Positions 2,541-51,760 of a DNA stretch of 64,000 nt are shown one piece after another. The notes beneath the pieces are model-generated. The model had not been told where the DNA came from. It worked only from the letters and a program-made list of their open reading frames with translations, and did no database searches. The DNA lies in NCBI GenBank assembly GCA_900095095.1, contig FMBT01000372.1, positions 1 to 64,000 of the forward strand, written 5' to 3'. The DNA comes from Fragilariopsis cylindrus CCMP1102. Taxonomy: Eukaryota > Bacillariophyta > Bacillariophyceae > Bacillariales > Bacillariaceae. Position 1 is the first letter of the stretch. Every line of letters begins with the position of its first letter. The position numbers were made by a program, and so were the translations under genes.

Positions 2541-2720
2541 TAACTAAGCGAATAAAATGAAAATGAAAGTGAATGACCTATAAAGAAGGTCAAAAATAGA
2601 AATAGAAATACAATACAATATAATATAAATAATGATTATGGTAAACAAAGATTGACTTAGATAGTAAATATATATCCAACTTTTAGTTAGTAACGTTTAA
2701 TAGTCTTCACTTAATTTAAC

Positions 2721-4274
2721 TTATGGGATTTCTCCTTTTTTCAAAAGACTATTGTATCGATCCAGTAAACGTCGTTCACGTTTATCTAAACGTGATGGAC
2801 CTTGAAAGGGTTGGAATGTATTACTGTCATTATCATTATCATTCTCTATACCATCACCATCATTATTATCAATACTATTGACAGGAGAGAGATTCGAATG
2901 ACGATGATTATGATATCCTCGTTCTACTTGTAATTCTTCAAGATATTTTGTAAAAAATAACACATTGTCATCTTGAGATGATGGTGTTGATAGTGATGAC
3001 TGTTGCTGTTGCTGTTGTTGTTGTTGTTGAAGAAGAAGAGAACGACGAAATATTTCTGCTTGTATACAACGTTCCCATGTTTTTTCTCTTCGTGGATTCA
3101 ATTTGTATCCCCCACCACCACCACGACTTTGTTGTTGGTTTGATAATTTTATGAACCGAACAATGGATTCTTTTGTTTCCTTCAATGATGTTAGTGTTCT
3201 TTGATCGTAGTAATTATCAGTAACAATACTAATACCAATGTTATCATCATCACTGTTATTATATTTTGGAAGTTCTTCCAGTAATTTCACGAATCCTGTC
3301 GAATCACAAAACATTGGACACTCTTTCTTGTTGAAAGATTTGCTGCTGTCACTGTATTTATTTGTTTCGATAGTATCACTAGTAATATTTCGATTGTGGT
3401 AAATACCATTATCATTGTTACTGTTGTTACTGTTGTTGTCGTCGCCGCCGTTGTCGTTATCGCTGTCAAGAAGTAGTCTTTTTGTATCAGTAGTAACAGC
3501 AAAACCCTTCGCCCTTTTCCTACGACTGAAACGAATTGTGGATGGTTCGTTATTATTGCTCACTGTAGTAGAAATTGATTGACGACGGAGTTTATAATTC
3601 AACTCTCTATCGTTAGTAACAAATGCCATTGAGGACCAATCCATTGACGAAGACGACGATGATGATGATGATGATGATAACGAAATGAGATGTTTCGATT
3701 CCGCAACAATAACATCATCTGCTCTCTGCCTCAATCCAGAAAAGAGAATGTTAATATTGACGGTAAAATTATTACTGTTACTACTATTATTATTATTGTT
3801 ATTATTGTTGTTGCTGCTGCAGTTATAGTGCTGTGTACAGGCAAATTTTTCACTACCATGATCCCATACTATCATTACATTTGGTATTCTATATTTGTAA
3901 CAGAAACGAACCACCTGATGTTGTAATTCTAAAGGATTTAATTCAAATTTTCCAATCCCACGTACATTATTCCCATCGACTACTAACAGACGTAATGGTG
4001 GTGGCAATGCTAATGAATTTTCTACTTCGTCTTTATGTTCCTCCTGATGCCTTTGTTCGTTGTTGTCTCCGTTGTTATAATATGTACTAGCTGTATTATC
4101 AGCCCAATTGACGAATTTATCATGAGTTTTGTTCGTTGTTCCTTTATTTTTACTTTTTTGTATTTGTATTTGTTGTTGTTGTTTTCTTATTTGTTGAAGA
4201 GCAAATGAATGATGAGGTATTACTGCTGTGAAATAGCAAATAATACTTACTATTACAAAACGACAAATTGTCAT
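2721..4274 (-). CDS. Secreted or organellar NYN/PIN-like domain protein
   Basis: About 517 residues from the ATG at 4274-4272; a longer reading would need a TTG start. The N-terminus is a hydrophobic leader (TICRFVIVSIICYFTAVI) ending near HHSFALQ, so entry to the secretory or plastid route is likely. The core matches the NYN/YacP-like PIN fold: LLVVDGNNVRG with its first acidic residue, then VMIVWDHGSEKF, then RADDVIVAES with a second acidic pair, then FVTNDRELNYKLRR. These are the places where PIN/NYN nucleases keep metal-binding Asp residues, so an RNase role is plausible. The domain is interrupted by N, S, D and Q runs encoded by microsatellites. The C-terminus SRLDKRERRLLDRYNSLL looks helical. 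No intron is needed. Confidence 0.65.
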   Translation of the reverse strand: MTICRFVIVSIICYFTAVIPHHSFALQQIRKQQQQIQIQKSKNKGTTNKTHDKFVNWADNTASTYYNNGDNNEQRHQEEHKDEVENSLALPPPLRLLVVDGNNVRGIGKFELNPLELQHQVVRFCYKYRIPNVMIVWDHGSEKFACTQHYNCSSNNNNNNNNNSSNSNNFTVNINILFSGLRQRADDVIVAESKHLISLSSSSSSSSSSSMDWSSMAFVTNDRELNYKLRRQSISTTVSNNNEPSTIRFSRRKRAKGFAVTTDTKRLLLDSDNDNGGDDNNSNNSNNDNGIYHNRNITSDTIETNKYSDSSKSFNKKECPMFCDSTGFVKLLEELPKYNNSDDDNIGISIVTDNYYDQRTLTSLKETKESIVRFIKLSNQQQSRGGGGGYKLNPRREKTWERCIQAEIFRRSLLLQQQQQQQQQQSSLSTPSSQDDNVLFFTKYLEELQVERGYHNHRHSNLSPVNSIDNNDGDGIENDNDNDSNTFQPFQGPSRLDKRERRLLDRYNSLLKKGEIP

Positions 4275-19862: not shown

Positions 19863-22800
19863 TTATAGGTCATCCAAATCATCTTCGTTTTCATATAGAT
19901 CATACTTCTTGAGTATTTCAATATACTGTCGTTTATAATCAGCATAATCCTCTGCTCTAATGCCTTGCATTGCATCTCTAAATTCAATGAATTTCGCTCC
20001 CTGTAGTGGCTTAGTACTATAATCAGCTATCATCTTATCAGTTGGACAATAAATCAATTTCAATTCCTTCTTTTCAATTTTATCTGTTACAAAGAAGTAT
20101 CGAATGTGAATGTGTTTACTTCCTTTTCCAACTGAAAATATACCATTTTTCTCCAATAACATAGTACTTTTATTATCTCTCATAAGTATATCTTCAACTA
20201 TCGGTTCTCCTTGAGCAATCCTGAAATATCGAAACCATGTGCACTTCGGCATTCTTTCGCCTGTACATACGATCTCTGTTTCGGTTGAACTATTTGTAAC
20301 TAGTCCTACTTTCTTCGAAACATTAATCATCGCTCCTTTACCTTGAGTTAAAAACAATCCTGAATGTCCCTTACAGTCAGCATGTACTGCATGTGCTCCA
20401 TCGATGTAAATTATTGTTTTCAATCCATCACTCATGATAATTAGTGGAAGGAATCTCGTTGCACGTAAATATTGCATTAGATGATTCAATTTCTTCCAAT
20501 CATGTTCTGTCGGATCCTTTATTCTTGTACAACAGAATCCAACTGCAAGTTGTACATCTGGTCTCGATCTTTGACTCAACCATAGTGTCTTTGCCGTTAC
20601 AGTATGAAATATTTCTTTTCTAATAAGATCCAGTAGACATAATACATCAGTTGTTTTAAATAGATATTCGGGTGCCGCTGTGTTCTTTAAACCTGTACTC
20701 AAACTGACTGGTAAACTATTGAGTAACTTCTTCAAGAAATCGTATTGACTAAAACGTGCTTCTAATTTGACTCTAAAATCGATCGTCATTCCTAAAAATT
20801 CATGAAGCCTTCCTCTTGTCACTGTTAAATTTGCTAATGATCCATATTCTTTCTGTAGTTTCTGAATATAGAACGTTACGATATTAGGACATAGATGCCC
20901 CAACATTAAATCGTCAATGTGAAATAATATTGTAAACTGTTTATCATTTACCATCTTATTCCATACACAAGCATCATACGGATTCATCTTGAAGTCCCAT
21001 GATCGAAATAGCTTAGCTAATTTCTTGTATGCTAATAAAGCAGCATTCATGGTACCGTAAATTGCTTTCTTACATATAACGTATATGACATATTTTCCAT
21101 TTTCATTACGTAAATGCTTTTTCCATTTATTTGGGTCCGATTCCACTAGCAATAAGGCTACAGCGCCTGTTACTTTTAGTAGAATCAATTCATCTTGATC
21201 AGTTTGAAGAAAGAAGCCTGGTAAGTCTACTGTGGCGACGTCTCTTCCCTCTCTTGCTATTACTGCACATACAAATTTAAAAGCATAGAAATCTGGTGTC
21301 GGTGATGACACGTCTTCTTTATTTGTATACAATCGTTGTACACTGCCGTTAGCACATCCTCTTGTCTTTAAAGATCCATTTCGTTTCAATACCATAAACA
21401 TTAGAATAGGTAATGCCTTATCTTTTGCATCTTGACTTAACTTTTCGTATACTGTCTCACCAAAGCAATCATTATCAGTGAGATTGATAATCTCTTTCAT
21501 TGCTGATGCTTTACCTTCATCCTTATATTTTCTCATACCTTCTTGGATACTCATTTGCTTTGCTGCAAACATCATTCCCGTGATATCTTGTTGTTCGACA
21601 TCCATCCACGTGATAGCATCAAGGTAATGTTGATGCTCTTCTTTTACTTTGATTAGATTGATTTTATCTGGACTTTCATCTGAATTGAATGTTGTTTCAG
21701 TTACATTATCAACAAAATACTGATCGCTATAATAATTGCCTTTAGCAAGATGTTCTTCATAATCTTCATCCAAATAATACGGTTTTAAACAACGTCCTGT
21801 TGGTACTTCTCCGTTACTATAGTAAACCCCAGGATATTCGCTTTCTCTATCCATTGGACGACTGATTCTTCCTGAACGTGTACGAATAACATCTTCTTCT
21901 TCTTCATCTTCATCATCGCTAGATGGTGAATCGACTTCATCTTCAGCATTCTCTGGCGCAACCTTCGTTCCTTGACTATCTTCGTCATCACTGGATTCAT
22001 CTTCCACTTGATCTAAGTGTTGTGTTAATGGTGTTGGATCTTGTAATGGTGGTGTATCATCATCATCCTCAATCTGTATATCATACGGATGCTCTTCATT
22101 GATGTTATCATCATTATCATTACTCACTCCCGTGATATCAGTACCATCTTCAAGATCATTATCGATAATATTATTTCGATCTCCAAATTGTAATCCCTTA
22201 ATTCCAGTTTTAGTTAATGATTTAATACGTCTTATGACGTCTTCTGGCATTTTAAGTGGAGTGTAACTATGCTTGTCTCGTTGAAGTATTTTTCCAGTGA
22301 CTAGGCTGTAAAATCTTATACCTCCTTGTAAATTGCCGGTTGGTCCTAGTGCAATCGCTCCTACTGTACGTCGTTTCATTGTATTTGTTGTAACTTCATA
22401 TGTGTGAGCATACTCTCCAAATATGACTTGGAAATGAAGGTTGTAATCAAGTACCACTCCTTCTAATATCGTTAATGGAGATAGAAATGGCGATACGCCT
22501 TTTCTCCATATGAATGCATTAATATAAAACATGACTGTTACTAATAAATGAATAACCATGATTCTTGGTAAATTGTCAAATGGTAACATGGCATAATAGC
22601 ATCTGCAACGTTCCTTTATAACTCTAATGAAACGTTCAATTGCTGGTGCGTGTTCACCCTTACCAACGACGTTTACAATTGCATTCAAATTGCCTCTATC
22701 TTTTATTGCTTTAAACTGAATATCGACCAATATATATTTAATATTGAAACCACGTACAGAGTACATTCTTATGATACGTTTTATTTCTTCTTCTAAAATT

Positions 22801-25160
22801 GGTATTTTCATTGAATCAAGTGCTCGTATTGTACCATAATGTATGTGTTGTGATATGCTAATAAGAAATGGAACCTTATTTACATGCATTATATCAACAG
22901 ATAATGATACGTCGACGTAATAATCTAATATTGTTGTTGGTACAGTCATTGATTCAGTAACTACGGCATTTGGTTGCCTCCGAACTGTTTTACCCTCTAC
23001 TGCATATTTACTTCTTCCTAGCATATTTAATGCCATCTTCACATCTCTTCTTGTGATTGGACTATTTTTAATTCCATTGGTCATCGCAGAATAGATAATC
23101 GTGTCGTCACTTGGGTGTGCTGCCACATGTTGAAATCTTCTTACTCTATTTGCTCTTTGCTGATCACGAGTACTGAAATTTTCTTTACTCTTCTTGATTG
23201 TATCAATAGCATCAGATACATCCGTCTCAGGCACTCCCGTAATATTATGACACATCGCAGTACCATTATTTGTTTCATTATCAATGATTGTTTTACCAAA
23301 TACATATCCTTGTTTACCAACTCCAAAGTAATTGCTACAATCAAGTATGTGCAAACCATCTTTATTCGGTGAGAACGATAACTCTATTCCTTCTGCTGTA
23401 ACACAATTGTATTTCAAATCACGTGTATTACCTGTTTTCTTATACAGCTTGGAGTTATAATCAATATCCCATTTACTGTTGACTACCATTCGATGCTGTG
23501 ATAGTATGTTAGCAACGCCTTCCGGATAGTACCACACGGTACCGACTCCAGGCAAATCAGCTATCATATTAATTCTGCAATTGCCTGCTTGCGTTCGTAG
23601 CAACAAAGTCATTTTACTTCTTCTGATATTAATAACGAATGCTTTGTTTACAATAACATCACACGTCGATTGATTATCACATAACATGTCAAATATTTTC
23701 ATTGATTTGTGACTTCCAGTTTGATTGAATACATGATTCTGTCCTCTCAAATCAATTACCATTGTATCATGCATATATTGTTGCCCATCATGCTCGTCTT
23801 CTTCGATTATTGCCTGTTCGAAATCAGGCAATTCGTCAGTTGCTATCACCTCACTTCCCATGTAGTGCTGGGCTCCAGATGCTGCTGCGGCTGTATCTTC
23901 AGCTGCACCTGCTGCATTCTTCTTTTCTTGATATGCTTTCCACTTTGCCTGTTTTATATCGGCACGTTCTTGGTACAGCTTATCACGTTCTGTCTTGGAA
24001 TTGAGATCATCACCATTTTCTTTCTTATCATACTTGCATTCTTTGGTCAGATGACCAACTCTACCGCATTTGAAACATGATAGATTCGTATTGCCACTTC
24101 CCCCACTACTATCGTTTGAACTCGCTTCGTAGTGTTGTTCAGCAGCTTTCTCATCACCCTGTTGGTGAAACTGCAGACCCTTGTCCTTTGATTCCTCTCT
24201 TGTCCTTGAGACAAATTGTGGTCTCCAATTATCAAGCCGTCGACTTGCCTCAACAGTATCATCTGGAAATTTATCTGTACCAGAATCGAATGCATTCTTT
24301 AAATCGATCCTGAAATTTTCATATTTGAAACCTGCTCTCTTGATGAATACGTATGCCTTGTATTTATCACTACAACAATCCATGCCAATATCAATCTTGT
24401 CTTGATCCGGTGACGAGGATAGAACAGTATTCCTCCAATCCATCAGTTTCTTATATGATGGATGATCTTTCATTCTCTTTTCTTCAAGTTCCTTGATATA
24501 GAGATCTCTTAATTCGCTAGTTGCGAAGGACCATCCTGCCTTGTTGGCAATATCGTATCTTTTATCGAACGCTTCCAGATAGGTTGACGTATCTGCGTAT
24601 TCTTCTCCCTTGATTAGATGAAAGTTATACAATGACTCCATTGCAGCCATGTAACAGTTTTGATGATAAGTAGACCCGTTACAAACGCGTTGAATGATTT
24701 GAAATAGCATCTTAGCGTCGCCTGTATCCATCGAAATGAATTCCTTGTCTCTTTTGATAATAGTTTGAAGAGGAAGATTACATTGTCCCCATAGTATCGA
24801 ATAGCTTTTAGATAGATCTTGGTTGATCGATCTAACGTACTTGCGATAATCAGTATTATCGAGAGCCCATTCGTTTTGCACAGCCCAATCCTCGGCTTCA
24901 AGAGCAGCCTTGGACACATATTGCTTCGGTTTAGTCATTTCTGTAACCGTTAACTTGTTACAATAGATCGACTGCTTCACACTTTCACCAAATTTACTAC
25001 CCACATGAGTTAGGAACGTCTTGGATGAAGTTAGGCACTTCTGTTGCATTCCTCTCCCATAATAGAAGAAATGCGTCTTGATATCTTTCGTACGTCCCTC
25101 AAACACGGGTTCTTGTGAAAAGATCTTGCTGGCTGATTCCTTGGTTTTGTTATCAGTCAT
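19863..25160 (-). CDS. gag-pol polyprotein of the copia element
   Basis: A single frame of 1765 codons from the ATG at 25160. The parts, with rough residues, are gag (1-350), a CCHC knuckle CFKCGRVGHLTKEC (about 360), a protease region with MLCDNQSTCDVIV (about 490), a GAG-pre-integrase segment (about 670), an integrase core (about 750-850), an acidic linker (about 1000-1130), reverse transcriptase (about 1200-1450, with FHIDDLMLG near 1415), and RNase H (YIDGAHAVHADCKGHSG near 1587, STETEIVCTGE near 1623). This is the Ty1/copia order with integrase before reverse transcriptase. Gag and pol share one frame, a common copia layout. Confidence 0.9.
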   Translation of the reverse strand: MTDNKTKESASKIFSQEPVFEGRTKDIKTHFFYYGRGMQQKCLTSSKTFLTHVGSKFGESVKQSIYCNKLTVTEMTKPKQYVSKAALEAEDWAVQNEWALDNTDYRKYVRSINQDLSKSYSILWGQCNLPLQTIIKRDKEFISMDTGDAKMLFQIIQRVCNGSTYHQNCYMAAMESLYNFHLIKGEEYADTSTYLEAFDKRYDIANKAGWSFATSELRDLYIKELEEKRMKDHPSYKKLMDWRNTVLSSSPDQDKIDIGMDCCSDKYKAYVFIKRAGFKYENFRIDLKNAFDSGTDKFPDDTVEASRRLDNWRPQFVSRTREESKDKGLQFHQQGDEKAAEQHYEASSNDSSGGSGNTNLSCFKCGRVGHLTKECKYDKKENGDDLNSKTERDKLYQERADIKQAKWKAYQEKKNAAGAAEDTAAAASGAQHYMGSEVIATDELPDFEQAIIEEDEHDGQQYMHDTMVIDLRGQNHVFNQTGSHKSMKIFDMLCDNQSTCDVIVNKAFVINIRRSKMTLLLRTQAGNCRINMIADLPGVGTVWYYPEGVANILSQHRMVVNSKWDIDYNSKLYKKTGNTRDLKYNCVTAEGIELSFSPNKDGLHILDCSNYFGVGKQGYVFGKTIIDNETNNGTAMCHNITGVPETDVSDAIDTIKKSKENFSTRDQQRANRVRRFQHVAAHPSDDTIIYSAMTNGIKNSPITRRDVKMALNMLGRSKYAVEGKTVRRQPNAVVTESMTVPTTILDYYVDVSLSVDIMHVNKVPFLISISQHIHYGTIRALDSMKIPILEEEIKRIIRMYSVRGFNIKYILVDIQFKAIKDRGNLNAIVNVVGKGEHAPAIERFIRVIKERCRCYYAMLPFDNLPRIMVIHLLVTVMFYINAFIWRKGVSPFLSPLTILEGVVLDYNLHFQVIFGEYAHTYEVTTNTMKRRTVGAIALGPTGNLQGGIRFYSLVTGKILQRDKHSYTPLKMPEDVIRRIKSLTKTGIKGLQFGDRNNIIDNDLEDGTDITGVSNDNDDNINEEHPYDIQIEDDDDTPPLQDPTPLTQHLDQVEDESSDDEDSQGTKVAPENAEDEVDSPSSDDEDEEEEDVIRTRSGRISRPMDRESEYPGVYYSNGEVPTGRCLKPYYLDEDYEEHLAKGNYYSDQYFVDNVTETTFNSDESPDKINLIKVKEEHQHYLDAITWMDVEQQDITGMMFAAKQMSIQEGMRKYKDEGKASAMKEIINLTDNDCFGETVYEKLSQDAKDKALPILMFMVLKRNGSLKTRGCANGSVQRLYTNKEDVSSPTPDFYAFKFVCAVIAREGRDVATVDLPGFFLQTDQDELILLKVTGAVALLLVESDPNKWKKHLRNENGKYVIYVICKKAIYGTMNAALLAYKKLAKLFRSWDFKMNPYDACVWNKMVNDKQFTILFHIDDLMLGHLCPNIVTFYIQKLQKEYGSLANLTVTRGRLHEFLGMTIDFRVKLEARFSQYDFLKKLLNSLPVSLSTGLKNTAAPEYLFKTTDVLCLLDLIRKEIFHTVTAKTLWLSQRSRPDVQLAVGFCCTRIKDPTEHDWKKLNHLMQYLRATRFLPLIIMSDGLKTIIYIDGAHAVHADCKGHSGLFLTQGKGAMINVSKKVGLVTNSSTETEIVCTGERMPKCTWFRYFRIAQGEPIVEDILMRDNKSTMLLEKNGIFSVGKGSKHIHIRYFFVTDKIEKKELKLIYCPTDKMIADYSTKPLQGAKFIEFRDAMQGIRAEDYADYKRQYIEILKKYDLYENEDDLDDL

Positions 25161-25266
25161 GATGCTCGTACTCGGCTTAGTTTTGTTTGATTTGATTTAT
25201 ATTATCGTTCTATCTCTTAAGATTAGATGTAACGTATGTTATTTTAACGCCTTTTTATTAAAATTA

Positions 25267-26762: not shown

Positions 26763-28022
26763 TCAAATCTCCACTTCCAAAAGGGTCTGGATGGTACGCA
26801 ACGATGTCACTTTGATATCTTTGGCTCCGCTAAAGCCAGCAGCAGTGAAGAGTTCCTCGTGTTCCGAAACGGTCCGTTCGCGTGATCCATACGGATTGGA
26901 CGCCACCATATTGATCGACATCAATCGTTTGCTTTGCTCCATTGCCGGAGAGGCTCCCGTATCGATGACTTGGTCCACGACGGCGACGCTCTTCTTCGAA
27001 TTCGTCGGTGCGCTTGCTACCGATTCTTTGATATTCTTCAGTAGCAATACGTTCTCTGCATCGGGCCAATCATGGATGATGTATCTAATATGGTATACGT
27101 CGCATTCCGAGAATTTCTCTGGGAAGGGGTCAAAGAAACTGCCACCGACGGCCTCGGCTCGATTCGATAGTCCCCTCTCCTTCAAATACTCGTTTGCGCG
27201 CTTGGCTGACTCCGGTTGGTCGAGAACCATACCCTTCATGTGAGGATAGTGTTCCAACACGTGAGCGAGCACGTGACCGAGACCGCCGCCGATATCACAG
27301 AACATAATGTCTTCGCGCGATGGCTTCCAATCCGAGATCATGGCACCGGTAGGCCCTCCCCCTAGTGACTTCATCGCACGGTCAAATTGCGCTCCCTTCT
27401 CGGGATGGTCGTTGTTGTAGGTCCAAAAATCCTTCCCGCCAAAGCTGGCCTGAAAGCCGCTGACCTTGCCCGACTTGATGACCTTGGTGGATGCTCCCCT
27501 CCACGCATCTCGTGTCTCCTCGTTGATCATCATCAAAAAACTATGGAGGTTGTCCTTGAGATACATATCGCCCACTGGCGTCAACGAGTAAGTAGGAACA
27601 GTACTATCGGATGAATCGTTTTTCTCCATCACATGCAACTGGACTCCGGCCTCCATGTACTGGCAGACGACGAATTCCTGGAGGTCCAACTCGGTTGCAA
27701 CATCACGGCACGTCATGGATCTAGATGCCACCAAATCGAAGATACCGTTGTAGCCAAGACCGTAGACAACCTCCGATTTCCACCACGCGGTAGCAAGTTC
27801 CAGCGCCGCTACATCGGGCGGCGTCGTCACACGTGCCGCGGTGGCAAAGAACGAATTGATTTTGACCGCAACCTTGAAAACTGGCCACGGCGGGATCAGA
27901 CCGGTGAAGCTTCCATCGGGAATATGCGGCGGCGTGACACCATTGGGAGAGGTGGCGATGAGGACGAGAATCGCCAAGACGGGAACGGCGCAAACAGAGG
28001 CAACGGCGGTGATTTTCGACAT
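26763..28022 (-). CDS. SAM-dependent O-methyltransferase (Methyltransf_2 type), membrane-anchored
   Basis: A single-exon, 419-residue protein from the ATG at 28022. A dimerisation winged-helix-like half (ELATAWWKSEVVYGLGYNGI, then MTCRDVATELDL) precedes the Rossmann methyltransferase. The SAM motif is CDIGGGLGHV near 242-251, with VLDQPES closing strand 2. The catalytic His/Asp region IIHDWPDAENVLLLKNI has H317. This fits plant COMT-like and bacterial hydroxyneurosporene-type O-methyltransferases. The first 25 residues are hydrophobic (AVPVLAILVLIATS), so a signal peptide or anchor is likely. The small-molecule substrate cannot be named. Base composition is clearly GC-richer than the neighbours and there is no intron or microsatellite insertion, which may reflect transfer or strong codon selection. 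Confidence 0.82.
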   Translation of the reverse strand: MSKITAVASVCAVPVLAILVLIATSPNGVTPPHIPDGSFTGLIPPWPVFKVAVKINSFFATAARVTTPPDVAALELATAWWKSEVVYGLGYNGIFDLVASRSMTCRDVATELDLQEFVVCQYMEAGVQLHVMEKNDSSDSTVPTYSLTPVGDMYLKDNLHSFLMMINEETRDAWRGASTKVIKSGKVSGFQASFGGKDFWTYNNDHPEKGAQFDRAMKSLGGGPTGAMISDWKPSREDIMFCDIGGGLGHVLAHVLEHYPHMKGMVLDQPESAKRANEYLKERGLSNRAEAVGGSFFDPFPEKFSECDVYHIRYIIHDWPDAENVLLLKNIKESVASAPTNSKKSVAVVDQVIDTGASPAMEQSKRLMSINMVASNPYGSRERTVSEHEELFTAAGFSGAKDIKVTSLRTIQTLLEVEI

Positions 28023-28486
28023 TTTTAGAAAAATTGCGAACTGGAATTGAAATTGTCAGTTGGTAGAATATATGCCATCAACAAGCAAAACAACAAAAAA
28101 AGGGCATGAATTGAAATTTTCCTAACAGTATGTCGAATAATCGTAAAAAGGATATCCTACCCAAAATTACTTACAGTAGTGAAGATATCACGATTCACCT
28201 TGTTCACAAGATAGTTTTGATAAAAACCGAAAAATAAATTAAGCAACCACACCCCTCCCCCAAAATCAAAACAGTCTGTAGTAAAAACGCTCGAGACATT
28301 ATGACTTTACGAATCAATAATAGTGACTAGACTTTTTTTTATTTAACTAAAAAATCGAAACAACAAAGAGAGACATCATACGATTAATCCGATCCAGACT
28401 TTAAATAATATACGAACTCCATACGGTACTTGTTTACAGTAAACGAGCAGAACTTAATAGAAGAGTCCGATAATCATTAGTCTTAG

Positions 28487-43500: not shown

Positions 43501-46500
43501 ATGTCCTCCCACAGACATGACGATGATGATTCGTCGACCGATACCAGTAGCGACGATGATAGCTCATCATCATCAAGTTCATATTCCAATGATGATCCTG
43601 GCTGGATGCAAAAATTCACAGGAAAATCTAAAAATTCTTCCACCGATCAAGAAGCGTGTAGGACAAAAACAGCCCGCGAGGATATCAACATTGGAGAAGA
43701 TAGTGTATCAAATTTAGATCCAGACTGGATGGGAAAGTTTAATAGGACAAATTTTTCTGCTGCATCATCATCGTCATCTGACAGTAAGCAGGACGACAAA
43801 AAATCAAGAAGAATAAGCAAGGGCGCTGAACGACGAGAAAGAATACGGCAAAATCTCAGTCGTCTAAAAATCCAGGAAAAACAACAACGACGAGGCGATA
43901 ATCGTCCAATTCTCGATGGGAAGGTTAAAAGGGGTGAGAGAAAGACTGCAAGAGTATCGAAACCGTCGAAAGATGATAGAACCGATTCATTGAAACGTAG
44001 TAAGAATGTTGCAATAAATCCAATTACGCCAGCAGCAGTACATAATCAATCTACAGTCAAAAACGACATCAAGACTCCAAAGAAGAATACGAATACGAAT
44101 ACAAATAACAAACCGAATAATAATAAGATAACTAGTCCTACCAAACAATCTCCGTCAAGAGATGATGGAAGAGAATCATTGAAACGTAGTAGGAATGTTA
44201 CAATAAATCCAATTTCGCCAGCAGTAGTACATAACCAATCTACAGTCAAAAACGACATCAAGACTCCAAAGAAGTATACGAATACGAATACGAATAACGA
44301 ACCGAATAATAAAGAAATAACTAGTCCTACCAAACAATCTTTTCCAACACAACAGCACGATTTAGCGAAATCTTCAACAAATAATTCATATTCCAGTCCA
44401 AGTCGCGAGGAAACTCAAGAAAAAAGCACAACAAATACTACTAAAATATACAAATGGAAGAGCAAGAAACCGGTTCCGAAGGAGCCATCCCCGTCACCTC
44501 AAATACGTCGTAACAGTCAAGAAAAAAGCACAACAAATACTACTAAAATATACAAATGGAAGAGCAAGAAACCGGTTCCGAAAGAGCCACCCCCGTCACC
44601 TCAAATACGTCATAACAGTCAAGTTGAGATAGAAACAAGCGTCCCAAGTAATCGGTTTGGGATGTTCGGAGACACTGTCAAGGCGAAGAAGCCATCCAAC
44701 GATGCAGGTGTGATGAGCTACAGAATGATCCAGAATCAAAAAGATAAGGTAAAGGAGAGGATTGAGAAAGCGAGGAAAGAAGCTGCCGGGTTGGAAGATA
44801 CTGATGCAATAGACGAAGAAGAAAATGGGATCCAACTTGATCCAGATGAGTCTTTTTCTCACCTATTCTTTGGTGGAAAAGATAAGAATTTAGATAAAGG
44901 AAAGGATTCAACAAGTATGGATAACTCTGCAGCCGCTTTATTTGGTTCGGGAGCTGCTACTAAGAATAAAAATAAAGATGAAGATGCAATGAATAATTCT
45001 GCAGCTGCTTTATTTGGTTTGCGGGCTACTACTAAGAATAAAAAGAAAGATGAAGAAGGACTGAAATCAGCAAGTGCTGACGATGATGCTGCTGCTGCAC
45101 TTTTCTTTAGAAAACCGACTGCTAAGAATGAAAAGAAAGATGAAGAGCTAAAATCAACAAGGACTGATGATGATGCTGCTGCTGCACTTTTCTTTAGAAA
45201 ACCGACTGCTAAGAATGAGAAGAAAGATGAAGGGCTGAAATCAACAAGTGCTGATGATGATGCTGCTGCTGCACTTTTCTTTAGAAAACCGACTGCTAAG
45301 AATGAAAAGGAAGATGAAGGGCTGAAATCAACAAGTGCTGACGATGATGCTGCTGCTGCACTTTTCTTTAGAAAACCGGCTGCTAAGAATGAAAAGGAAG
45401 ATGAAGGGCTGAAATCAACAAGTGCTGACGATGATGCTGCTGCTGCACTTTTCTTTAGAAAACCGGCTGCTAAGAATGAGGAAGAAGGGAATGAAAAGGA
45501 AGATGAAGGGCCGAAATCAACAAGTGCTGACGATGATGCTGCTGCTGCACTTTTCTTTAGAAAACCGGCTGCTAAGAATGAGGAAGAAGGGAATGAAAAG
45601 GAAGATGAAGGGCTGAAATCAACAAGTTCTGACGATGATGCTGCTGCTCTTTTCTTTAGAAAACCGGCTACTAAGAATGAGGAAGAAGGGAATGAAAAGG
45701 ATAATGAAGGACTGAAACCAACAAGTGCTGACGATGATGCTGCTGCTCTTTTCTTTAGGAGACCGGCCACTAAGAATGAGGAAGAAGGACTGAAAGCAAC
45801 AAGTACTGACGAAGATGAAGAGGGGCTGAAATCAACGAGTGCTGATGATGATGCTGCTGCTCTTTTCTTTCGGAAAGCACCTCCTATTACTAATGAAAAG
45901 GAAGATGAAGAGGGGCTGAAATCAACGAGTGCTGATGATGATGCTGCTGCTCTTTTCTTTCGGAAAGCACCTACTATTACTAATGAAAAGGAAGATGAAG
46001 AGGGGCTGAAATCAACGAGTGCTGATGATGATGCTGCTGCTCTTTTCTTTAGGAAAGCACCTACTATTACTAATGAAAAGGAAGATGAAGAAGGGCTGAA
46101 ATCAACGAGTGCTGATGATGATGCTGCTGCTCTTTTCTTTAGGAAAGCACCTACTACTACTAATGAAAAGGAAGATGAAGATGGGCTGAAATCAACGAGT
46201 GCTGATGATGATGCTGCTGCTCTTTTCTTTAAGAAAGCACCTATTAAGAATGAAAAGGAAGATGAAGAAGGGCTGAAATCAACGAGTGCTGATGATGATG
46301 CTGCTGCTCTTTTCTTTAGGTAAGTACCTTTAGGCAGGTACATATTAAGAATGAAAAGGAAGATGAAAAAGGTCTGATATCAATGAGTGCTGACGATGAT
46401 GCTGCTGCTCTTTCCTTTAGGAATGCACATACTAGGAATAGAAATGACGATGATGCTGCTACTCTTTTCATTGTAACAGATGTTGCTACTAAGAATGATT

Positions 46501-46985
46501 CGAAATCGTCAAATTCTAGTTCTACACAAGGTGATAATGATATTGCTCACAGTGTAGACATGGACGATTCACTGAGTGACGACTCATCCACGGATTCAGA
46601 ATTAGGAATGAAGAAGAAATTAACTCCTTCATCCAAGAAGGATGAAAAGACAAAGAAATCTAAAGACGGAGAAGATAAGGAATTAAAAAAAGGAAACAAG
46701 AAGAAGATAGGTAAGAAAGAAAAATATCGGTCTATCAGTCCAAAGAAAAAGGGGAAGAAGGGGAAAGATAAACTGCAAGCTTCGACAACTTCAATAGATG
46801 AGGGAAGTTTTTCAGACTCTGAATTTCTCGCTGACTTCGGTGATGATGCCGATCCGGTTCATACGAGGAAGAAGAAAAATTACAAACCAAAATCAAAGAA
46901 AAATATGAAGGCTAAGAAATTAGAACAGAAATCTCCGATGAAGTCTCCGAAAAAATCACCGAAGAAGAAGGAAAAGAAGAAGTAG
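43501..46985 (+). CDS. Large disordered tandem-repeat protein; last intron derived from a repeat unit
   Basis: I do not recognise the family. Exon 1 is 43501-46319 and exon 2 46421-46985. The 101-base intron begins GTAAGT and ends CTTTAG; 2819+565 bases give 1127 residues in frame. The N-terminus is acidic and Ser-rich with two related PGWMQKFTGK / PDWMGKFNRT motifs. Next come a 62-residue duplication (about 43967-44340) and two copies of a 34-residue unit with TKIYKWKSKKPVPKEP (44416-44619). About fifteen units of 29-37 residues sharing STSADDDAAALFFRK follow. The C-terminus is Lys/Ser-rich (KSPMKSPKKSPKKKEKKK), like a nuclear or nucleolar basic tail. No signal peptide is present. FxFG-like or aggregation-prone LFFR motifs in an acidic context suggest a scaffold; function is unknown. 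Confidence 0.65.
43967..44340 (+). repeat. Coding direct duplication, two units of about 189 bases
   Basis: Two units each read LKRSxNVxINPIxPAxVHNQ, then STVKNDIKTPKK and an N/T run, with about 80-85 percent identity by eye. Confidence 0.85.
45040..46420 (+). repeat. Coding minisatellite, 87-111-base units
   Basis: Some fifteen tandem units end in a C/T-rich stretch TGCTGCTCTTTTCTTTAG followed by G. Units near the 5' side vary (extra Ala, EEEGNEKEDEG insert). The last five units at about 45840-46319 are nearly identical 87-90-base copies, which points to recent homogenisation. Confidence 0.9.
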
Positions 46986-47232
46986 GATGTTTTCTTAGTT
47001 TGGGTCTTGTTGGGGAGAACAAGCCACGGGTATGGATTATTCAATAATCAGAACTACTTAACAGGTATCAACGAAAATGGCTAAAAACATAAACAGACTT
47101 TAGATGTAGAGGATAGCTGTCTAGCAGATGCTTGTTTATATGCAGTGATAAATTAATTGTACCTTACTATTCATTTCGCAAGTTCGCTGCATTGTTTCTA
47201 GTTCCTTAAAATATAAGTACATTCCGTTCGAG

Positions 47233-50200
47233 TTATTCTTTTTCATTGGAGTTCGAAAGTTTCATGCGCTTCAGAGAGGGCGGAACGCAAGATTCGTCAA
47301 TAATCTTTACCGTTGTGATAACATATTGGTAGTACTCACTCATTTCCCTAAGCAAATCGGAAGGATCCCGAATAACGAGACAGTCATTTTTCCATTTCTT
47401 CTCGCCATCTTCTAGCGGTCTAACATGTTCGGCGTTCATTGCAGAGAAAGGCATCGTCGCAAAAGTTTGTGGTCGCCAAACAAGTCCAATGACTTCTGGA
47501 GCGAGTTCATTGTAGAAGAATAGGGCATATCTACCAAACTTTTCTCTTAGCGACGAAATAACTGACTTGATAGGTTGCCAGAGCAAAATAGTCTCATCGG
47601 AGGTACTATTTTGGATATTTTTGTATACTTTACGACGGAGTCCTTTCGGCCCTTCGATCCTAGCTTTTGTGCTCCTAGTAAAGGAACTTTCCATTATCCC
47701 ATCCTCATTGGGAGAGGGATCCAAATTGCTACCTGTTGAAGAGGCCTCGGTATCCACCACAAAATCCGTATCAACACGCAAAAGGACACTGTAGGACTGG
47801 AACGATGAAGGACTCTCATGAAATATGGCCGACCAATCGCTTGATTTAGCAAAGGACATCTGTTTTTTCATCATAAAAGTATGCGATCGCTTTGCCAATG
47901 CTACAGAGCGAGTCAAACAGACCCATTCCGACGAAATAGTACTTGGCTGCCACGACGTCTGAGTGGACGATTTGACAGCGTTTCGGTCCATTGAATCGTT
48001 TTCGTCTATTTCCTGTTTGTCGTATGGTGCAACGATATACATTGGATGACCCCCTTCTCGATTCTTCCCTCTAGCCTTCTCAAATTGGAGATTGATTTCA
48101 TCGCAATCATCGTCGTCAATGTGACCCCGTGGATCTACAATAAGAGGTTCACTAGCATTAAAAGATTTAAAAAAAACATGAAATCGAGAGGAAAGGTTAG
48201 ATTTATAGTTCCGATAAGAATGAATGCCAAACTTTTTCTGAGACGATGAGACAATACGACAGGCGTGTTTGTGAATCACTTACCCCAACCAATCGTGATA
48301 AGCAAACAAATATAAAAACCTAAGGAAACCCGTAGTCACAGTCGATGGGGTTTCCAATGGTGATTCATCGTCCGAATACACTTTTGCAACCATCAACTCA
48401 ATCACTTCGATGGGAATCAAACCTGAGAGCATGTGATTTGCGACCCATCTTTTTGCCATTCGAACAACACCAGCAGAAGATGGATGTAAGGTGTGTACAG
48501 CATGTACCATGGAGTGGTGTTTTGCTGCAACAATGTGTACTTTAGTTAGCTTTTGGAGGAGGGATGAAGCCATTGGGCTTGGACTTACGAGTCCCTGGAG
48601 CATTTTAATCTCCGGGTCAGCTCGGACAAGGATTCGAAAACAGTACCCACGATATCCTAGATCAAGATAGTTTGGAGTGACCTGCACTGGTCCACCAAAA
48701 TCTTTGTTGTTCACGCCTTCGATAGCATTGGCCAATTGAATCAGCATTGCGGTCTTTGCAGCCCCGATAGCTTTAAGATCCGAAGGCCACTTCGATGACG
48801 CTCCAAACCGAATCTGGATCAAAATAGGATCGGACATTAAGGCACCGGATACCTTCTTACCAGTTGGCGCTGAACCGCCCAGAGACGGATGAGGTGTTGG
48901 AGGGAAAAGCTCCGAATACCTTAAACACGGAGACAAGGGCTCCACGGCGTCTATTGCCAAAGGAAGCTCTAAGAATGTATGATTCTGCTGTCGACCAATA
49001 GTTGGCTGAGTACTCTGGCGAAAAAAATCAGATAAAGAATCAAATGCTTTCATCACATGTTGGTGTGCTAGAAATGGATTCACAAGCTGAGTCGAAGACT
49101 GATGTTTGGTCGAAATCCCGTCGACGACGGAGACGAGATTTGGTAGTGTAAATTCAATTTGTTCTTTCGTATAATGCAATCGCACAATGTGACGTAATAT
49201 CATTTCTACATATCCTCCTGGAGCTTGACTTGATTCTGATAGCGATCTTTACCGTCATCATCATTCCATACAACAGCTTGGACTATAGCTCCATCCTTAA
49301 ATCGGCGGAGTTGAGCTTTTCCTCCCCAAAGTTGACAAAAGACTTTACTTCCTTTGTGTGATCTGAGGGAGGACCACGATCGACTACTCGTTGACTTGTT
49401 TCTGGATTAATGGCGATTCCCAAGATAGTTTCCCCTCTTTGAGAAGGTGGAAGATGCAACGGTCGTTTGTATGTTGAATTACTGTCAATGATAGCAGATG
49501 GAGTTTGATCCGGATCGTTCTTTTCCAATGACATATCTCCATTCCCTGTACTCATCACACGTATTCCACGAATACGATTGCCCAGTGCAAGTTCTAGTTT
49601 CCCAACCAAGCAACGGACGGATGATTCCCACTCATCATTCGACGATAATTCCTTTTGATTGGGATTCTAACATACATATCCCACTGATTCCAAAATCGAG
49701 CATTCTTCATAAACATGTAAGCGAAGGCAGATTTGGATGCCTTTAAACCTTGTAGACCCTGTGTTGCGTGGAATTGTAACAACTTCGTATAATTTGGAGA
49801 AACATCACCGAGGAAATTATACGTCATTGTCGGATCGAGCATGACAGGCCCTAAACCGTAATGATCCTGACTTGCGTAGGCTTCGATGAGGGTAGGCGGG
49901 TCCCTGTCGGTCAGTGGTGATTCCTTGGTCTGTCTCTCATAAAGCCGAGACAGATCAGATTCTCTAATTGTTTCTTTCTCGGAGCTTTCTTCCAATGGTA
50001 AAACAAGAACATCTCGTCGTCGACGTTTTTTCTTAGAGGAGGAATCCTGGCTATTAAATTGTGATGCCTCACTCTGTGATGCGCGAACTTCGGGAATACT
50101 ATTATCATTACTTTTTTCTTTATCATTGATGCCTTTGGATGATGTTCCTAACCAGTTAGTGGTTGACCACATTTGTAGTACGACAGTAAATTGTTGAATC

Positions 50201-51760
50201 GGTGTCATTCGAGGATTCATTCGATTCGTTCGTAACAAATAAAGTAAGAATAACGCAATATTCTCTTTCGACCAACCATCATGATTCCTCCATAGACCAC
50301 GTTGAAGTGCCCAAATTTGAATCAAAACTAATGTAGCTTCAACATTTGGATGATCGATTAATTCTTCTGACATCAAATGTTCATCTTCAAATTCATGTCG
50401 TGCATCAAACAATAAACTTTGATTGTACAATTGATTTTGGATCATCAATCTATTGTCCGATGGAGCAGTTGCTGTTGCTGATACTATCTGTAATTCGTCA
50501 TCGTCGTCATCATTATCAACTTTGATATTACATCGATTCGGTACCAGTCGCAATTGAGGTATCCAATCAATAGATTCCATTCCAAAATGCAAGTGGACTT
50601 GAAATTTTGCTGCACCTCCCTTTTTACCCGTCGTTGATTGATTGTTTGGTGGTACCAGTTCTAGATATGGGGAACGATTCGATCCTTTTGGCCACTTGTA
50701 TTTGACACTACCCAATTTGTTGGTATGCTTTGATAAGTATACAGAAATCTTATCCATAATAAAGTTACGTTTCTGTGTGACAAAAAGGAGAATGATTTTA
50801 AAAGGTGTATATGGGTGAGTGAGTACAAACCTATTTTTCTCTTTATTTGTCGTCGTCGTCGTCGTCGTCGTATCGTAAATTACTATTCAATGGAATAATC
50901 GTATGGCATTTTTTTTCCTTTTTTTCCCCTTTCTTACTTCCTTTTTTGTAAAATCTTTTTAACTTACATCAAAATAACGATAATTCAAATAATCTTTTGA
51001 GGAAATAATTCTGCTGGTAGTTTAATCATCAATGAAAACGTTGGCAACATTTGTGCATTCCCTGATTTTTTCGTCCATCCAAATTGACTCTTTGTACATC
51101 CGATTGGTCTACTGTTAGCACAGTATTATTATTCTTCCTTTCTTCTTGATTATTTTTTCAATATGTACTACCTTATCGGCACGATCCTTGACAGAATAAC
51201 TACTTTCACTTGCCGTTTTTGAATTTTTTGTATCTTCTGAAAATATAGAATCAGATGCATTGGTTATAATTTTTGTTACATCCTGTAAATATTCATGTGC
51301 ATGAGTTGTCCATTTCCTGCCTTTAATATCCAATTTACATTCATCTAATAATTCTTTCACTTGCATTCTCATTAAATTTGTACGATGCAAATCCATAGTT
51401 GATGATAAATCAATTGATTCTAATAAAGCAGCATCCTTCGCTACAAATTATCCTTACTGTCATTATTCTTATCTCTTTTGTTATGGATATTGAAGTTGTC
51501 ACCGACAATATGAATATTGAAGTTGTCTTCATTAGCAACATCCGAATTGTCGTTGGCGGTGGTGTAAGTACTGCTCTTTTTACGTGAATGTTTCATCTTT
51601 GGCTTTGGCTTTGCCTTTGGTTGGATCAAATCAAAACTAAATACTGATGATAAAATTTCAACTTCCTCTTTCTTAGGTATCTCGCTCTTTTTCTTCGTCT
51701 TTCTTCGTCTTTCTCTTTCTGTCTCGAATTGTTCCTCTTGATATAAGATAAAATGAATAA
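47233..51760 (-). CDS. NOL6: NOL6/Utp22 (Nrap) ribosome-biogenesis protein, several frame breaks, 5' end uncertain
   Basis: A U3 snoRNP component of the small-subunit processome. From 5' to 3' on the minus strand, NOL6 blocks appear in order. They are an N-terminal helix (LHRTNLMRMQVKELLDE), then PAELFPQ and DYLNYRYFD, GSVKYKWPKGSNRSPYLELV and WALQRGLWRNHDGWSKENIA. These are followed by KLELALGNRIRGIRV, LRRFKDGAIVQAVVW, KWPSDLKAIGAAK, GVVRMAKRWVANHML, FLRFLYLFAYHDW and the C-terminal GLVWRPQTFATMPFSA. Two clean introns are 50773-50967 and 48152-48283. Between blocks about six single-base shifts are needed, near 51446, 51115-51130, 50996, 49662, 49329 and 49239, mostly in short homopolymers. 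The first exon and start codon beyond about 51750 are not resolved. The family is certain; whether this copy is functional depends on checking the shifts. Confidence 0.85.

Follow-up and report, generated by a model that had tools for sequence, protein, structure and literature searches.

A proposed young spliceosomal intron derived from one coding unit of a tandem array in Fragilariopsis cylindrus

Introduction

Has one coding unit of a tandem repeat array been turned into an intron at the point where the reading frame of its gene breaks? This is the question raised by a repeat-protein gene whose open reading frame (ORF1) ends, by direct reading, at a TAA (46321-46323) lying within a perfect GTAAGT (46320-46325), and beyond which a second frame is open from 46320 to 46985, covering one more repeat unit as well as a Lys-rich tail preceded by a degenerate partial unit. 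The origin of new introns is still debated, and intronization by splice-site mutation is said to have been described by Irimia in 2008. Intronization and repeat-derived introns are already known, and the intron proposed here would be one more such case.

We propose that the segment 46320-46420 is probably a young spliceosomal intron that arose by intronization of one coding tandem-repeat unit. The proposal is built on the reading of the DNA, and the segment is recorded throughout as a proposed intron only (Table 1).

Table 1. Features of the repeat-protein gene around the frame break (positions are those of the window)
Feature	Position	Strand	Remarks
Proposed exon 1: N-terminal part and repeat array	43501..46319	+	939 codons plus 2 bases open
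Tandem coding array	44917..46421	+	two LFG-type units, then 15 DDDAAA(A)LFFR-like units; units of 72-114 nt
Coding unit preceding the proposed intron	46234..46320	+	3-nt-shorter linker ATTAAGAATGAA, in common with the intron unit
14-bp duplication, copy 1, TTTAGGTAAGTACC	46315..46328	+	includes stop TAA plus donor
Proposed 5' splice site GTAAGT	46320..46325	+	contains the in-frame TAA 46321-46323
Proposed intron, 101 nt, GT-AG	46320..46420	+	top-scored frame-restoring pair
14-bp duplication, copy 2, TTTAGGCAGGTACA	46329..46342	+	without GTAAGT
Presumed former coding repeat unit	46335..46421	+	29 codons, still open in the frame of the tail
Branch-point-like CTGAC	46390..46394	+	27 nt from the A to the intron end
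Proposed 3' splice site CTTTCCTTTAG	46410..46420	+	pyrimidine-rich; AG at 46419-46420
Proposed exon 2, 188-codon Lys-rich tail	46421..46985	+	opens with a degenerate partial repeat unit

Results

The window and the repeat-protein gene

The window, i.e., the whole stretch of 64,000 bases analysed here, corresponds to bases 1-64000 of contig C205 (186,035 bases), which belongs to a genome assembled into 818 contigs totalling 67.9 Mb. Conserved genes of this genome contain introns, as exemplified by the CCT chaperonin gene, in which positions 1-317 and 319-489 of Pfam PF00118 are split over two exons. Elsewhere in the window a retroelement of Copia-like type, whose open frame runs over 1777 codons, was recognised by eye at 19863-25196 (-), and an O-methyltransferase gene (PF00891, PF08100) was located at 26763-28055 (-). 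The latter sits in the 2-kb bin with the highest G+C content of the window (0.46, the others ranging from 0.33 to 0.44) and is possibly of foreign origin. Scans of the window with Rfam at gathering scores and for tRNAs gave no matches.

The repeat-protein gene starts with the ATG at 43501 and encodes a low-complexity protein; a Pfam search with the ORF1 protein retrieved no family at E<=1. The frame of the proposed exon 1 is the only one with a positive codon score. Nested tandem repeats of 189, 102, 72 and 87-90 bp are found inside the gene; the tandem duplications of 189, 102 and 72 bp, all of them multiples of three, are located at 43963-44340, 44415-44623 and 44917-45056. Between 45022 and 46421 there are 15 full units with DDDAAA(A)LFFR-like ends. 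All of them contain CTGAY at 27 or 30 nt upstream of the boundary, and 12 end with TTTAG, two with TTTCGG and one with TTTAAG. The statement of the preliminary description that every unit ends in a polypyrimidine-AG is consequently valid for those 12 units and has to be withdrawn for the other three. Most units of the array appear to be latent 3' splice sites, missing just a donor. Antisense to the array there is an open frame of 506 codons (44859-46379, -), probably a mere by-product of the repeat composition.

The frame break and its restoration

The break reads TTTAGG TAA GTA CC and is followed by the near copy TTTAGG CAG GTA CA, both belonging to a 14-bp tandem duplication, with 3 of the 14 positions differing between the copies. 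The 101-nt segment consists of this duplication and a repeat unit of 87 nt; it is flanked on either side by coding units from the same array, and its in-frame TAA begins at its second base. The last G (46421) of the 87-nt unit is the first base past the acceptor. All these sequence features, the frame and the array context are directly observed, and they agree with the preliminary description regarding the TAA as the end of ORF1, the GTAAGT, the AG with CTTTCCTTTAG followed by G, and the composition of the 101 nt. GTAAGT is found in copy 1 and is absent from copy 2 (46329-46342), a single case; a pair of such donors separated by 14 nt would be in competition.

Removal of the 101 nt fuses ORF1 to the second frame and adds 188 codons with a Lys-rich end and a stop at 46983-46985. 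This restoration, as previously claimed, is correct; however, it does not single out the 101 nt, because the deletion of only 14 nt (46320-46333) yields an identical restored frame, the remaining 87 nt being 29 codons (3 x 29) that still translate as the repeat unit QVHIKNEKEDEKGLISMSADDDAAALSFR. In fact, an intron finder in which introns of at least 12 nt were permitted took out the 14 nt and left the unit in. A spliceosomal intron of 14 nt is implausible. Since the frame alone cannot favour 101 nt, the case for this length must rest on the splice signals. Stop readthrough at the TAA was also considered and rejected, as it would proceed for 17 codons until a TGA, leaving the tail out of reach.

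Splice signals

The splice sites were compared with a reference set of nine introns, six in the window and three downstream on C205, which were set by hand through protein continuity because the trained finder had misplaced the donor of the dehydratase gene and the acceptors of the sirtuin and GET3-like genes. The names of the CCT, sirtuin and Nrap genes of this set are backed by Pfam, the gene labelled CSC1-like matched Anoctamin above the cut-off and PHM7_cyt below it, and the dehydratase, GET3-like and remaining names are those which we take these genes to bear. The second intron of the CSC1-like-labelled gene was ambiguous and was excluded. Among these nine introns the donors were GTAAGT (5), GTACGT (2), GTACGA (1) and GTGAGT (1), and the acceptors TAG (5) and CAG (4).

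The candidate donor scored 4.18 and the acceptor 1.05, within the leave-one-out ranges of the nine introns (0.77 to 4.55 and -2.16 to 2.79, respectively). Both sites match those of the genome's own introns, as is proper to a spliceosomal GT-AG intron, and the likeness to the donors of the genome is a direct observation. Among the GT-AG pairs restoring the frame, 46320-46420 ranked first of 51 with the nine-intron matrix and first of 30 with a broader matrix, whose training set includes doubtful introns. By the broader matrix, the donor belonged to the best-scoring 0.27% of 15,289 GT sites, and the acceptor to the best-scoring 8.6% of 14,287 AG sites. Donors scoring as high were found at 13 of 12,820 GT sites in 228,000 strand-bases, a count that includes the candidate and some training introns. 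So good a donor within 60 nt of a frame break, together with an equally good acceptor placed 60-250 nt further on in the right frame class, would be expected by chance in about 0.07% of cases, a post hoc estimate with a matrix from nine introns only. The branch-point consensus is YTNAY; the CTGAC of the segment is followed by a pyrimidine run, and the AG at 46419-46420 is the first AG after it.

The nine introns are 123-226 nt long, and the candidate, with 101 nt, is below every one of them. The introns predicted by the finder, some of them untrustworthy, span 53-241 nt and include another of 101 nt at L016:2213-2313 (-), with CAG/GTATGT...TTAG, itself unproven. The G+C content of the segment is 0.39, close to that of its flanks (0.40 and 0.36) and above that of the nine introns (0.28-0.35). 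A low intron-likeness in composition is expected of a young intron, yet it is no evidence for one.

The boundaries preceding the break indicate how the donor could have arisen. The five upstream of it are G/GAAAGCACC-like. GAAAGC is present at all five preceding boundaries of the subfamily (45873, 45963, 46053, 46143 and 46233) versus GTAAGT at the break, and at each of them one A>T change would give GTAAGC and convert AAA into TAA. The unit following these boundaries ends with TTTAG at three (45963, 46053 and 46233), with TTTCG at one and with TTTAAG at one. None of the possible single changes produces GT[AG][AC]G at the eight boundaries spanning 45111-45759, so the notion that a single mutation suffices to make a donor is sustained for the five preceding boundaries and not for these eight. 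The splice site at the break would appear to have been created by mutation inside an exon, as intronization implies.

Coding signal of the tail and of the last unit

Codon scores, trained on ORFs of at least 280 codons, one of them from a retroelement, were positive for the tail when read in the rescued frame (+0.191 per codon), the other two frames giving -0.586 and -0.359. The 87-nt unit scored +0.249 per codon in the rescued frame, i.e., it is coding-like. The time available for decay was measured by the divergence since the duplication, for which 3 changes over 28 sites give a d of about 0.107. In simulations beginning from the present-day tail, an untranslated tail at this divergence was still open in 18% of runs when only substitutions were allowed and in 0.1% when every ten substitutions were accompanied by one indel. 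The corresponding values were 44 and 4.6% at d = 0.05, 71 and 29% at d = 0.02, and 92 and 73% at d = 0.005. The argument from the open tail thus loses force for a younger event.

The last unit, which is the one in the proposed intron, shows the highest core pN of the 15 units (0.120, the next being 0.082) with an ordinary pS, and 10 changes over its 87 bases separate it from its neighbour. The pN/pS ratio was 0.127 within the 14 other units and 0.476 between the last unit and the others. Its private core changes were 4 nonsynonymous to 1 synonymous, a ratio uninformative on relaxed constraint because the 14 other units show 9 to 1. Four private nonsynonymous changes stand against 0.64 on average (P 0.004 by a crude Poisson estimate). 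Only this excess of changes, and not the ratio, points to relaxed constraint in the last unit, and units at the array edge may diverge faster regardless.

The second contig and other copies

In contig C165 (23,233 bases) the locus is present once more, again with the 14-bp duplication and the same site. From 46071 to 50824 of the window there were no substitutions between both contigs and a single 2-base deletion (AA, in the tail). C165 may therefore represent the same haplotype there, and hence no independent allele. In its array 8 of 12 indels were frame-breaking, one alignment-boundary row being excluded and the placement within repeats being uncertain. In the N-terminal coding part a single base was deleted and insertions of 138, 9, 3 and 30 bases were present; these insertions, all multiples of three, lie at about 2709-3100 of the C165 copy (L006). 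Upstream of the gene this copy is longer by about 620 bases, at about 1140-1761; the core motif of the array matched 17 times in it and 15 times in the window. Either C165 is poorly polished in the repeats or this copy is decaying, and decay would weaken the case for an intron.

No further copy of the locus was found in the genome than this one, which carries the same site. The exact 14-mer had a third copy in contig C746, which was taken as a chance match, the reversed control pattern having matched four times. A search for a spliced retrocopy through the joined junction, with up to three mismatches, returned two matches, the two genomic acceptors; common words may escape this search. No relative of the tail or of the N-terminal part was detected in the viral_contigs collection, nor any of the ORF1 protein in genome_contigs; these negatives carry little weight, the collections being viral or prokaryotic with few eukaryotes.

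Discussion

Origin of the segment

The origin of the segment from a coding unit is well supported, because it holds a full 29-codon unit, shares the shorter linker with the preceding unit and lies between coding units. The direction would be from coding to intron, since the ATTAAGAATGAA linker matches the intact preceding unit and coding units flank the segment. The last unit is weakly placed in the unit tree (0.41), so that its kinship rests on the common shorter linker. The segment would have formerly been coding exon, as intronization demands. In addition, the stop-driven hypothesis supposes a length that is a multiple of three at the origin, and the segment would have had 87 nt without the duplication, an earlier state that we infer.

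The following course of events is proposed, in which we infer the occurrence of splicing, its efficiency and the order of the changes. The boundaries of the 3' units read G/GAAAGCACC, and the coding sequence of the units itself would supply CTGAY, a pyrimidine run and TTTAG (12 of 15 units) as a 3' splice site already in place. An A>T change in the base with which the next unit begins would turn AAA into TAA and GAAAGC into GTAAGC simultaneously, and a C>T change, possibly earlier than the A>T, would give GTAAGT. Splicing to the TTTAG of the next unit would then excise the new stop and exactly 29 codons, and the protein would lose one repeat and retain its tail. Once the unit was intronic, the 14-bp duplication would have been harmless, extending it from 87 to 101 nt. 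If the donor came first and the duplication second, the tail would be kept at every intermediate, whereas with the duplication first it would be lost at once. That a single A>T acted as a self-rescuing nonsense mutation, giving rise at once to a stop and to the 5' splice site by which this stop is removed, and thereby converting one in-frame unit into an intron, is a tentative suggestion, slightly short of an even chance. The preliminary view of an intron derived from a coding repeat would be upheld in its anatomy and coding-unit origin, while the composition of the segment is not intron-like; a snapshot of intron birth is plausible, although the differences at 3 of 14 positions suggest that the event is not brand new.

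Alternative explanations

The main competitor of the proposed intron is a plain truncation, in which the A>T stop, the 14-bp frameshift or both end the protein after codon 940, the tail being a decaying 3' UTR and the GTAAGT a coincidence. The exon-like composition of the segment and the frame-breaking indels of the C165 copy fit with it, the loss could perhaps be tolerated in a low-complexity protein lacking Pfam matches, and the tail would still be open after a recent event (92 or 73% at d = 0.005). However, it requires the donor and acceptor coincidence of about 0.07%, and the 188-codon tail is open and coding-like despite the 3/14 copy differences and the 10 changes in 87 bases; we consider truncation unlikely. 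Quite improbable is that the donor is the same GTAAGT but the acceptor a different one, for instance 46519 (200 nt) or 46435 (116 nt), or that several acceptors are used alternatively, which would leave the repeat origin unchanged. The pair 46320-46519 was the runner-up of the 51 with the nine-intron matrix (4.89 vs. 5.23 for 46320-46420) and its 200 nt are closer to the usual length, yet with the broader matrix it scored 0.68 vs. 4.30, and the TTTAG at 46420 presents the first AG past CTGAC, after the pyrimidine run.

Two other explanations deserve very little credence. The tail could be a separate coding unit starting from ATG 46383, which lies in the tail frame within the repeat unit, with the TAA as the true gene end; but this start would be inside the array, with zero intergenic space, and the first part of the tail is a degenerate unit that belongs to the array as well. 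Likewise, the 14-bp duplication could be an assembly or sequencing error, given that the region is a tandem repeat and that many small indels separate the arrays of the two contigs. Against such an error, the 14 bp are identical in both contigs, the two copies have three differences, unlike a copying artefact, and the in-frame TAA would persist without the duplication.

Comparison with known systems

In fission yeasts, the introns of SPOG_01682 and SOCG_00815 are built of 24-nt tandem exonic repeats (PMC3629103). The present locus would resemble them in having repeated exonic units as intron, splice sites inside the units and repeats running into the exons. Those cases have AGGC proto-splice sites and EST evidence, one of them needing further work (PMC3629103), whereas here there is one 87-nt unit plus 14 bp, with a strong, stop-containing GTAAGT. 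In the same study, 127 of 128 putative fission-yeast intronizations with transcript data, candidates from annotation comparison, were disproved (PMC3629103), and because of this sober base rate we hold our confidence at probable.

Five intronizations are reported for Cryptococcus (PMC2740785). As in that splice-site-mutation route, a point mutation in an exon would have produced a new splice site and changed coding sequence into intron; unlike those cases, the donor alone had to arise here, since the repeat already supplied the 3' splice site. The stop-driven hypothesis (PMC2586383) likewise involves a short stop-containing exonic segment, originally a multiple of three, with frame-keeping splicing, but here stop and donor would be one mutation and the segment has now 101 nt; moreover, the locus is near the gene 3' end, where that model expects fewer such introns (PMC2586383). 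Of these two intronization routes, a 2012 review grants indirect support only to splice-site mutation and not to the stop-driven one (PMC3443670). Another study attributes 2.0% of the deletions within exons to intronization (PMC12457776).

The tandem-duplication intron of potato RdRp also has splice sites from duplicated sequence (PMC4974935); in contrast, the locus here is an array of coding units, and its 14-bp duplication is too short for an intron and probably later. Exitrons are exon-like introns within a coding exon (PMC4484396), and the likeness to them ends at retention: the retained form of an exitron is open through the segment, whereas here a TAA is in frame, retention hits this stop at once and the retained form ends after codon 940. 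Finally, Cryptococcus CNN00420 is also a repetitive gene in which repeats led to new introns; intron-containing repeats multiplied there (PMC2395259), while in the present gene an exonic unit would have become intronic.

Significance

If the intronization of a repeat unit proposed here is true, arrays of this type would be ready-made sources of introns, the same change being possible at five neighbouring boundaries, three of them followed by a unit with TTTAG at its end. The locus would unite the splice-site-mutation and the stop-driven routes in one base change, and its still-coding sister units lie alongside, usable for comparison.
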